Source of the DNA: a virus
DNA: 25,267 nt
Strand: one strand, 5' to 3'
Virus record (IMG/VR): IMGVR_UViG_3300037805_000555
Span: 1 to 25,267 of that record
The notes under the pieces are model-generated. The model searched no databases and had not been told where the DNA came from. It was given only the letters and a program-made list of their open reading frames with translations. Position 1 is the stretch's first letter. Each line of letters starts with the position of its first letter. Below are positions 1,991 through 8,631 of the stretch, in pieces. A program made the translations under genes and the position numbers.

Positions 1991-1996
1991 ATCTCA

Positions 1997-2135
1997 GTTG
2001 CAAATTAAATTTGTAATAACTGAATTTATAGTTAATATAGATTTACATTAAAAGACCTATATGTAGTGGTATAGTGTTTCTATGCCCTTACAGGTTTTTT
2101 AGAACACAAGTACCCACTACTACTTGTGTTTTTTT
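1997..2135 (+). ncRNA. Candidate short structured RNA ending in a terminator
   Basis: A consensus promoter is followed by about 140 bases without an open frame. Hairpin 1 has an outer stem of nine pairs (2050-2058 with 2092-2100, one G-T) and an inner stem GGTATAG/CTATGCC (2068-2074 with 2080-2086, one T-G). Hairpin 2 is the strong terminator at 2103-2130. The terminator loop carries ACTAC (2116-2120), which is complementary to GTAGT (2063-2067) in the internal loop of hairpin 1; it can extend to seven pairs if GG at 2068-2069 opens. That suggests a kissing contact. No known family is recognised. It could be a free small RNA or the attenuated leader of the operon at 2451. Confidence 0.55.
2103..2135 (+). 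terminator. Strong intrinsic terminator
   Basis: A perfect 10-bp stem, AACACAAGTA (2103-2112) with TACTTGTGTT (2121-2130), an 8-base loop and a run of T to 2135. Confidence 0.85.
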
Positions 2136-3896: not shown

Positions 3897-4316
3897 ATGA
3901 ATAAATTTGAAGAATGTTTAATAGAATGAGAAAGATTTGAACTTTTTGTAGCTAGTATTTTATATGATACTTGAAGATTATATACTAAAAACCCTGATAA
4001 ATATTGAATTGATTTATTATGAAAGGCAGGTAATGTTGAAGTGAAACTTGATACTAAATGAGAGGAAACTTGAAATCATTTTTTTGAAGTGAGTTATTGA
4101 TTAGCTCCTAGTTGAGTTTTTAAATATGATAGTATGCAATATTTTGTTATTTGAACTTATGATGAGTTCTTCCTTTTAGAAAAGAATGATTTAATGAGAA
4201 TGTTATTGATTTATTGAGAACAGAGATATTGATGAGATGATATGAAAAGCTTTTGATATATTGTTGCTAAGAAAGAGGTTAGAGAATGTGCTAGATTTAT
4301 TTATAAAAAAACATAA
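3897..4316 (+). CDS. PD-(D/E)XK-type nuclease (139 aa)
   Basis: Residues 37-50 read GIDLLGKAGNVEVK: Asp39, then Glu48-Val-Lys50, the D...ExK core of PD-(D/E)XK nucleases. An N-terminal helix (ERFELFVASIL) and a following EV at about 68-69 fit the fold. A size near 140 residues suits a Holliday-junction-resolvase-like or single-domain phage nuclease, acting on recombination or replication intermediates. The gene sits between small early genes and a NinG-like gene and overlaps the latter as TAATG. The nuclease fold is well supported by motif; the exact substrate is inference. Confidence 0.8.
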
Positions 4317-4885
4317 TGAGAAAAATTTGTTGTAAAAAATGTAAAACCTATTTTATTAAGCCTGAGAGCGATTTAGATATTATTAGGGTACTAGGAGTTA
4401 ATTTATGCAGTAAAAGTTGTCGTAGGGCTTATATTGCTATGAAAAACAACGAAAAAAAAGAGAAGCTAATGTTGAAAAAACAAAAAGTGAAAATAAAAAA
4501 ACAAAGCTCTATATCTTTTCTGACTAAAAAAGCTGACAAACTTTGGAGTGAGTGTGTTAAAATTAGAGATTGATATAAATGCCAATACTGTGATAAAACA
4601 GAATACTTAAATTCACATCATTTATTTACTAGGGCTAGAAAATCTACTAGGTGGGTTTTAAATAATGGTATTACTCTTTGTAGCTGACACCATACTTTAA
4701 GTTCTACATTTTCTGCACACCAAACTTGATTAGAGTTTTTTGAGTGGCTAGAAAAGAGAAAAGGTAGAGAATGGATAGATAAATTAAGCAGAGATAGTCA
4801 GGCAGTTATTAAGGTTACTCCTGCTTTTATACAAGAAAGGATAGAGTGATTGGAATTGTATAAAAAATGTATACAAATTAAATAG
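4316..4885 (+). CDS. NinG/Rap-like recombination protein with HNH-type zinc site (189 aa)
   Basis: An N-terminal Cys cluster (C5, C6, C9, then C31-x3-C35) is followed by a highly charged Lys/Glu linker (about 43-62) and the segment LTKKADKLWSECVKIRDGYKCQYC (69-92). Then come SHH at 100-102, CSGHH at 122-126 and a C-terminal helical part (FFEWLEKRKG). Order and spacing match lambda NinG (Rap), a structure-specific nuclease that helps recombination, with an HNH-like metal site. The TGA-coded Gly86 and Gly124 lie inside the motif, so the standard code would cut the protein at residue 85. It ends with TAG and closes the operon. Confidence 0.8.
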
Positions 4886-4921
4886 CTATACAAAGCAAAT
4901 CTACGATATAATAAAAAAGAT

Positions 4922-4949
4922 TTGACATTCTAACATAAAACAATATACT
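4922..4949 (+). promoter_or_regulatory. Promoter for the large RNA and the Rad52 operon
   Basis: TTGACA at 4922-4927 and TATACT at 4944-4949 with a 16-bp spacer. The start would be near 4956, eight bases before the closing helix of the RNA. Confidence 0.8.
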
Positions 4950-4963
4950 TAGATTAGTTCCTT

Positions 4964-5336
4964 AACATAGTCTAAAATAAAACAAAACAAGTACAGTAGA
5001 GCTTAGTGTTACTTATGTAGGTGGATTAGTTTAAATACTATGAGCTGTTTGATATAAGTTGTTATAAGGCTTCCTAAATAGGAGTGGCTGAGGTAATGTA
5101 AAACACATTGATTGAGATAATCATTAAGAGGGAAAACTGTATTGCAAACTGCTATGCTAACACTGTTGAGGTAAAATATGAGATTGAGAATGTAAAACAT
5201 CTCCTTGCGAGTTATTCAAATATGGGTATAGGCTCTGTAAAAACCTATCAATAATCAATGTATTTCCAAAAGAGCAAGTGTTCCAAGTGGAGAGTGGTTA
5301 AGACCTACCATACAGAGTTTTATTTTAGATTATGTT
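4964..5336 (+). ncRNA. Candidate large structured RNA closed by a 20-bp helix
   Basis: Bases 4964-4983 pair with 5317-5336 over 20 continuous pairs with only one G-T. Inside lie hairpins at 5053-5066 (TATAA/TTATA), 5072-5083 (TCCT/AGGA), 5095-5109 (AATGT/ACATT), 5186-5203 (GAGA-TGT/ACA-TCTC with one bulge) and 5228-5248 (ATAGG/CCTAT). The loop of the last (CTCTGTA, 5233-5239) is complementary to TACAGAG at 5311-5317, a possible pseudoknot that shares one base with the closing helix. Longer contacts are AGTGTTA/TAACACT (5005-5011 with 5158-5164) and CATTGATT/AATCAATG (5106-5113 with 5253-5260); the latter competes with a local hairpin. It has its own promoter and no open frame. The closed-ends layout recalls large phage RNAs such as ROOL or GOLLD, but I recognise no family and it is shorter than those. 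Confidence 0.65.
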
Positions 5337-5368
5337 AATGAACTAATTTTATTTCTTCATAATAATAT

Positions 5369-5923
5369 ATGAAAACACTATCTAAGGAGCAATTAGAATT
5401 ACTGAAAAAACCCTTACCAAAGGAAGCAGTAAGTCCACACCCTACCAAAACATATTTATCAAGTATAAAAGCTATATATGTTACTGAAAGATTTAATGAT
5501 GTATTTGGAGTATGAGTATGGAAAATTGAAACTGAGTTTATAGAAAAAGTGCAAGCAATGGTTGTTATAAAAGTAATTTTTACAGTTGCTGAATATAATA
5601 TACATATTGAGAATTATTGAGGGAATGATAATGCTGATTTGTGAGATGCTTATAAATGAGCTGTTACAGATGCAATTACTAAAATTGGTAGTTTCTTATG
5701 AATAGGAGCTGATGTTTTTAAAGGTAAGCAAAAATGAGAAAGAACTGCTTGAACACCTTGAACACAAAACACAAATGAACTACCTTGGTTTGCAGATGAA
5801 AATTTAAAAACATTAGTAGACTTAGTTAAACAATGAAAGAAAATTACATTATTAGAGGTAAAAAATAAATATAGAATTGCAAAAAGATATAATGATGATT
5901 TATTAGAATTATGAATAATATAA
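5369..5923 (+). CDS. Rad52-like single-strand annealing protein (184 aa)
   Basis: Residues 29-50 (YLSSIKAIYVTERFNDVFG...) match the start of the Rad52 core. The diagnostic block lies at 93-120: DAYKGAVTDAITKIGSFLGIGADVF, in the family pattern A-x-K-G-A-x-T-D-A ... LG-x-G-x-x-V-F-x-G. Proteins of this family form rings that anneal complementary single strands and drive phage recombination. The C-terminal 55 residues hold a short helical segment (ADENLKTLVDLVKQGKKI), possibly for partner binding. The gene heads an operon that includes Gp157, ParB-like and NinB-like genes and follows the structured RNA by about 30 bases. Its 3' end overlaps the HNH gene. Confidence 0.88.
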
Positions 5924-6447
5924 TGAGTAGAAACCCAATATTATATAGAAAGTTAGCCTTTAGTGTGTACTGTAATGCTAAGATTTGTGTTAAATGTTAT
6001 GCTCTAAAAAATATAGAGGTACATCACAAAGATGAAAACATTGATAATCATTTAGAAGAAAATTTACAGATTTTATGTAAAAAATGCCACACAAGATTGC
6101 ATAAAAAATGAATGATTGTTAGTGATAAGACAAGGAAGAAAATAGGTAAATCTCATTTATGATTAAAAAGAAGTTTAGAAGCAAGAGAAAAGATTAGATT
6201 ATCCAAAATAGGTAATAAAAATGCATTATGAGCTGTGCGAAGTTTAGAAACTAGAAGAAAAATGCAACTATGAAAAAAAGGTAAAAAAATAATTCAATTA
6301 ACAATGGATTGAGAAATTATTAAAGTATGGGACTATATAATAGAAGCTAAACGACAATTAAAACTTTCTAATATAAATAATTGTTTAAATTGAAGACATA
6401 AAACCTGTTGATGATACAAATGGAAATATTTTATTAATAACTTATAA
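5923..6447 (+). CDS. HNH homing endonuclease with NUMOD modules (174 aa)
   Basis: The HNH core has Cys22-x2-Cys25, His34-His35, Asn47 and Cys52-x2-Cys55-His56, in the same register as the protein at 442-864. NUMOD3-like repeats follow (KIGKSHLG, KIRLSKIG, KMQLGKKG), then a C-terminal NUMOD1/IENR1-like module (KIIQLTMDGEIIKVWDYI ... INNCLNGRHKTCGGYKWKY), which binds DNA. ATG at 5923 gives a TAATG overlap with the Rad52 gene and aligns with the start of the paralogue. An in-frame ATG at 5911 is possible but less likely. Insertion beside a recombination gene is typical of such mobile genes. Confidence 0.9.
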
Positions 6448-7726: not shown

Positions 7727-8248
7727 ATGGAAAATAGAAAAGTATATGTTGGTATAAAAACAAAATTTGAAACAATGGTGTTTATGATAGAAACAAATAA
7801 AAGTATAAGCGATATTAGAAATTTTTATGAAACATACTGAGCAATTACTGTTACAAATGACTGAAAGGATATAAAAGACAGCTTGGAAGCAATGACTTGA
7901 ATGTTTATTGAATGAGATATAACTAGAGTTATAGCTAATTCTGATAATATAAAAGTTAAAATTTATGTAGATTTTGAAGATGCTAAAGAAGATGCAATAT
8001 TTTGAGAAAGATTTAGTAGAATGGATATTGATGAAGATGAATGACTAGATAGTGATACATTAGAAACTTATGACAAATTACTTGAAACTATGAGAAATTG
8101 TTGAAAATTTACTAGAAAAGATATATCTAAAATGAAAGACTTTAAATATAAATTAAAGAATGAAAAAGATAAAGGAAAAAGACAAAAATTAATGAAAGAA
8201 AGCATAGTTAGTATTATGACTGCTATGGTTTCTAATGATATAATATAG
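7727..8248 (+). CDS. Hypothetical protein (173 aa)
   Basis: The N-terminal half looks like a mixed alpha/beta domain (RKVYVGIKTKFETMVF ... RVIANSDNIKVKIYVDF). The centre is acidic (DIDEDEGLDSD) and the C-terminal 60 residues are Lys-rich and helical. It ends in TAG, whose G begins the GTG start of the next gene. The family is not recognised; the context suggests recombination or replication. Confidence 0.78.
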
Positions 8249-8631
8249 TGAAAACAAAAGAAGTAATAGAATTTTTGGAAACCCAATCAAAAGATGTTGA
8301 TTGGGTTATCCAAAAAAAAGAAACAAAGCAAGGTAGAAGCCTTGCACAAAATAGAACTTGGTATAAATTATTTTGAGCTATATCTAAACATTTATGATAT
8401 AATGTCCAAGAAGTAAAAATATATATGTTGAGCTGATGCTTCTGAACAAAGAAATTGAAAATGAGTAAAGAGGAAATAGAAGTGCCTGTTATTTCAAATA
8501 CATCTGATTTAACAAAAGAGCAATGAATATTTTTTATAGATACGATTATAGCTTTTGCAAAAATTAAGAATGTGCCTGTTGAAATAACAAGTGAAGAAGT
8601 GAGAAATTTATATGATAGCTACAAAGAATAA
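8248..8631 (+). CDS. NinB-like recombination protein (127 aa)
   Basis: GTG at 8248 is the start, overlapping the previous TAG by one base (TAGTG). The N-terminal part has RSLAQNRTWYKLFGAISKHLGY, and the C-terminal part SNTSDLTKEQGIFFIDTIIAFAK. A block Q-N-x-x-W/Y-x-x-x-x-x-I-x-x-x-L-G-Y followed by T-x-x-L-T-x-x-Q-x-x-x-F-I-D is typical of phage NinB-like and related recombination-mediator proteins that bind single-stranded DNA. The length is close to the family's usual 130-150. It lies in the same operon as the Rad52-like protein. Moderate certainty, by pattern only. Confidence 0.7.

Follow-up and report, generated by a model that had tools for sequence, protein, structure and literature searches.

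In the gap between a NinG-like HNH gene and a Rad52-like gene, a 25-kb phage fragment (the window, that is, the whole stretch of DNA that was analysed) carries a noncoding segment whose two ends form a real, non-random stem of 29 pairs. The segment is possibly a long 5′ leader that precedes the Rad52-like recombination operon and is clamped by this stem, which would suit RNase III and release a noncoding RNA of ∼330–390 nt together with a trimmed mRNA. This reading is preferred but tentative, at somewhat below an even chance. Of the proposals in a preliminary description of this DNA, the dedicated promoter, the noncoding region, the end pairing, and the position as leader of the Rad52 operon are supported. 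The ornate interior fold proposed in the same description is not supported.

The source phage translates TGA as glycine (translation table 25); long open frames make up 60% of the window in table 25 vs 2% in table 11. The gap that holds the segment measures 483 bp, and the recombination genes that follow run in the order Rad52-like, homing HNH, Gp157, ParB-like, NinB, and HTH regulator. Among all genes of the window, a Shine-Dalgarno-like motif is present at 2 of 36 starts, from which it seems that translation in this phage begins from AT-rich unstructured leaders. An attenuator acting through upstream ORFs with Shine-Dalgarno motifs was dropped as a candidate, these motifs being so scarce in the phage. 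The features of the segment and its surroundings are collected in the table.

Features of the segment and its immediate neighbours (positions in the window)
Feature	Position	Strand	Remarks
NinG-like HNH gene	4316–4885		upstream neighbour of the segment
Promoter TTGACA-16-TATACT	4922–4949	+	11 of 12 consensus matches
5′ arm of closing stem	4954–4983	+	7 + 22 pairs; weaker positions 4951–4953 could extend it
Noncoding interior, 333 nt	4984–5316	+	six frames noncoding; GC 34%; fold at shuffle level
Direct repeat AATGTAAAACA	5095 and 5189	+	within interior
Best-supported interior pairs	5105–5114/5252–5261, 5263–5268/5288–5293, 5294–5298/5307–5311	+	from pair probabilities
3′ arm of closing stem	5317–5346	+	from inverted repeat score; pair probability 0.95–0.99
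AT-rich spacer, 22 nt	5347–5368	+	from closing stem to Rad52-like start codon; no Shine-Dalgarno motif, as is usual for this phage
Rad52-like single-strand annealing protein (code 25)	5369–5923	+	first downstream gene; Pfam Rad52_Rad22 E 2.8e-4; PHROG single-strand annealing families

The closing stem consists of 22 uninterrupted pairs (4962–4983 with 5317–5338, ensemble probability 0.99) and 7 extra pairs (4954–4960 with 5340–5346, probability 0.95) that lie beyond a single C-U mismatch. This mismatch and one G-U pair (+ strand) are the only non-Watson-Crick positions within the 30-base arms. The 20 pairs with one G-T described earlier between 4964–4983 and 5317–5336 were recovered exactly, and the true stem extends beyond them. 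As an inverted repeat the stem scores 29, the runner-up in the window scores 16, and none of 400 dinucleotide-shuffled whole windows reached the observed score (most shuffles gave 15–18, with a maximum of 25). As a control, other phage contigs of >9 kb were scanned, and 2 of 48 have a comparable inverted repeat with a score of 26 and similar spacing; one flanks a 102-aa ORF, and the other sits among short ORFs only. By itself, then, a long inverted repeat does not prove an RNA.

The promoter ahead of the stem belongs to a small set. The region lies in a 20-kb half of the sister phage (see below) where only four sites have 11–12 of 12 promoter matches, all of them on the coding strand; three of the four have flanking letters in common. 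Usual promoter spacing predicts a transcription start at ∼4955–4957, on the bases that open the 5′ arm; we estimate the probability that a helix would by coincidence begin so near this position, within a gap of 483 bp, at roughly 3%. A promoter-pattern scan found no further + strand promoter ahead of the Rad52-like gene, and no terminator was found past the 3′ arm. Of the other three strong promoters, two also have small hairpins near the predicted start (∼1996 and ∼9283).

The earlier claim that some 400 bases without a gene follow a promoter holds up, with the promoter found and codon scores marking all six frames of the interior as noncoding. A minus-strand ORF of 100 aa (5009–5311) was rejected as a gene, its codon score resembling that of off-frame sequence. 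Interior GC content is 34% vs 27%, within the top 1.9% of equal-size windows. The fold of the interior is a different matter. Compared with shuffled sequence, its minimum free energy has a z of +0.14 on the + strand (+0.23 in a repeat run) and −0.84 on the − strand; Watson-Crick runs of at least 7 number 2, vs 3.4 expected from shuffles; and the longest complementary run, of 9, is equalled by 20% of shuffles. The segment as a whole has a z of ∼−2.7 to −3.6, and all of the excess stability is due to the closing stem. When the identical fold test was calibrated on the phage K lncRNAs, the lnc002 interior gave a z of −4.0 and lnc001 a z of −1.4. The consistent pairing that the preliminary description saw throughout the segment is thus reduced to the closing stem, the only element to beat shuffled sequence; the interior folds as its shuffles do, an outcome that the same description had named as counting against it. 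The letters of the proposed seven-pair pseudoknot (5233–5239 with 5311–5317) do pair, but over a length expected by chance, and base 5317 belongs to the closing stem. As these controls with shuffles and lncRNAs caution, a list of hairpins compiled by eye from AT-rich DNA can be pure chance.

A search for relatives identified one near-identical phage, IMGVR_UViG_3300038326_000452 (39.6 kb), which has 11 kb of the searched stretch in common at 99.94% identity. The identical copy of the segment that it carries, in the same orientation, is the sole homologue found. Searches with the Rad52-like, NinG-like, AAA, Gp157, and terminase proteins, as well as an alignment of terminases, gave this phage as the only relative sharing the region. 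Segment DNA had only short chance matches in other code-25 phages, and distant BLAST of phage and plasmid collections yielded nothing convincing. The arm pattern occurs in the source phage and its twin only among 2.9 million viral contigs. The internal repeat pattern TGAGGTAA..ATGTAAAACA had 48 matches in viral contigs, about the chance level; one matching contig with a good enclosing helix (L080) was rejected, as the match lies in coding sequence. Neither the segment sequence nor an inverted repeat of similar spacing was found in the code-25 phages reached through their terminase (L009–L012, L105–L107, and L127, several of them fragments) or in a NinG-bearing code-25 phage (G012). Since the only homologue is identical, covariation gives no information on either the stem or the interior. 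One of the terminase-found sequences, L105 (JALZUP010000340.1), is filed under a Robiginitomaculum MAG; it is a phage with recoded TGA whose terminase has 50% identity to that of the window, and the entry is probably misbinned.

The sister phage also differs from the window by a NUMOD3/HNH homing endonuclease gene at 442–865, which is missing there with an exact junction at 443/866. Identity to the sister phage is 88% in the left flank of this insertion and 99.94% in the right, so that a divergence breakpoint falls on the insertion. The two homing endonuclease genes of the phage are 71% alike in DNA across 141 bases (493–630 and ∼5972–6109), which suggests copying inside the lineage.

We infer a course of transcription, from start site through cleavage and release to a function of the released RNA, that would account for the segment as a clamped leader. 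RNA polymerase would start at ∼4955–4957, so that the transcript would open at the very beginning of the 5′ arm. The 3′ arm would be transcribed ∼330 noncoding bases later, and the arms could then close into the 29-pair stem, its foot 22 bases ahead of the Rad52-like start codon. In this form the stem may shield the 5′ end of the transcript from 5′-end-dependent decay. A perfect duplex of 22 pairs has the size that RNase III cuts. RNase III processing stems have ∼20 or more uninterrupted double-stranded pairs, and the stem offers 22 at a probability of 0.99; processing is proposed on account of this size. Cutting of both arms by host RNase III would free the noncoding RNA of ∼330–390 nt and leave an operon mRNA with a short AU-rich leader, suited to translation that is free of Shine-Dalgarno sites. 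It is rather unlikely that the RNA so released represents a new closed-end class from phages that read TGA as glycine, derived by RNase III from the leader of a recombination operon and acting alone, perhaps in recombination or in taking over the host.

The stem score reached by 0 of 400 shuffles, the rare near-consensus promoter at the start of the stem, whose flanks resemble those of two others, the near-perfect pairing of the arms, the lack of a second + strand promoter ahead of the Rad52-like gene, and the noncoding interior, GC-enriched like the phage K lncRNAs, favour a clamped leader. The interior at shuffle level, the comparable repeats in 2 of 48 contigs, and a homologue that is identical argue against it. 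The segment could instead be an independent structured noncoding RNA that has its own function and folds into a defined three-dimensional shape, like ROOL, GOLLD, and the phage K lncRNAs, and that lies upstream of the Rad52-like gene incidentally. The promoter of its own, the closed ends, and the GC-enriched noncoding interior are consistent with such an RNA. Phage K provides a precedent in its abundantly transcribed lncRNAs outside Rfam (PMC9241854), and lnc002 likewise has a perfect inverted repeat, of 18 bp. This explanation is nevertheless doubtful, given an interior z of ∼+0.2 vs −4.0 for the interior of lnc002 and −1.4 for lnc001, complementary runs at chance count, a 3′ arm that no terminator follows, the absence of an Rfam match, and conservation limited to the identical copy. 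Alternatively, the stem by itself may serve as a 5′ stabiliser or translation-control leader around a dispensable loop. This is in keeping with the stem being the sole feature above chance and with the small hairpins that are predicted to begin the transcripts from two of the other three strong promoters. It is judged unlikely, as a 333-nt loop would be costly for a stabiliser and the GC enrichment of the interior would be left unexplained.

A role in DNA rather than RNA is improbable. In favour of an invertible segment, or of what is left of a small mobile element bounded by terminal inverted repeats, a near-perfect 33-bp inverted repeat surrounds 333 bp here, and 2 of 48 other phage contigs have repeats of this kind. 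However, MITE-like elements exist in several copies with target-site duplications; this segment is single copy, the 2.9 million viral contigs have no instance of its arm pattern beyond the source phage and its twin, and no target-site duplication is evident in the flanks. An invertible promoter would lie inside the repeats and be served by a recombinase, whereas here the strong promoter is external to the repeat, a + strand scan found none inside it, no tyrosine or serine recombinase (Phage_integrase and Resolvase domains) was found in the 39.6-kb sister record, and the orientation of the segment is equal in both phages. GC skew was uninformative for a replication origin, as the skew tracks transcription, and a retron noncoding RNA was excluded, RVT_1 not being found in the sister record. 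Least probable is a chance or neutral leftover pairing with no function; conservation could not be shown and the interior is at chance level, but no shuffled window reaches the stem score and the stem falls on the predicted transcript start. If processing of the clamped leader does occur in this way, it would reveal how phages of TGA=glycine hosts, with genes that lack Shine-Dalgarno sites, control a recombination operon. The long noncoding RNAs of phages, themselves little understood, would also gain a compact closed-end member. If the stem alone matters, the segment would be an ordinary leader stabiliser.

Other parts of the window contain noncoding structure as well. A unit of 138 nt at ∼1996–2133 (+) is a much stronger small-RNA candidate than the 4964–5336 segment. 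It is noncoding, is preceded by a perfect consensus promoter (TTGACA-16-TATAAT, 1963–1990, +), and consists of three tandem hairpins that end in a terminator with a T run. The unit folds with a z of −5.6 to −7.3, an upstream GTAGTGG is complementary to the loop of the terminator (CCCACTAC), and no Rfam match to the unit rises above chance. Just past a gene ending at 1559, the noncoding stretch 1575–1692 ends in a terminator-like hairpin, GCTACTTTAATTAGTAGC-TTTTTT, and a second terminator-like hairpin, AAAAGTCCTGTAAAAAGGGCTTTT, lies near 1750. At the start of the NinB-like gene, two strong hairpins (CCCAATCAA..TTGATTGGG and GCAAGGT..GCCTTGC) occupy 8264–8345, and the surrounding 397 nt (8001–8397) have a z of −5.5.

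The Rfam scan that the preliminary description had suggested gave no match in the window at the gathering score and none up to E 5 in 4900–5420. No tRNA genes were found in either the window or the sister record of 39.6 kb. Assignment of the segment to ROOL or GOLLD is not supported, given the lack of a covariance-model match, the lack of tRNA neighbours, and the shorter length. Like these RNAs the segment is phage-borne, noncoding, and large, but many GOLLD RNAs exceed 800 nt (PMC12286853) and the segment measures ∼395 nt. ROOL and GOLLD usually adjoin phage tRNA genes and have an elaborate structure with covariation support, pseudoknots, and multimers, whereas the segment has no tRNA neighbours, and its one homologue found, being identical, offers no covariation in support of a structure. 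HEARO and OMEGA RNAs resemble it in being noncoding, roughly 340 nt, and near HNH genes (size and IsrB role: PMC12286853). They differ in that the segment has no Rfam match and its neighbouring HNH genes are of the NinG-like and NUMOD3 homing types, not IscB or IsrB.

Transcription of the phage K (Kayvirus) lncRNAs lnc001 and lnc002 has been shown by RNA-seq (PMC9241854). They share with the segment an AT-rich phage, noncoding sequence, an early promoter, GC enrichment (33–35% vs 29% for the phage K genome), and a place outside Rfam; they differ in being longer (635 and 1154 nt), in lying beside tRNA genes, and in their RNA-seq-shown transcription. The inverted repeat of lnc002, 38009–38026 and 38574–38591 in Staphylococcus phage K (L188), encloses ∼550 nt with no Rfam match. 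Pre-rRNA processing stems release rRNA. In contrast to the stems at which RNase III processes pre-rRNA and phage polycistronic RNAs, the stem described here brackets an RNA that is no known RNA, and its cleavage is only proposed; it is like them in being a long, near-perfect stem that brackets a noncoding RNA upstream of coding RNA.
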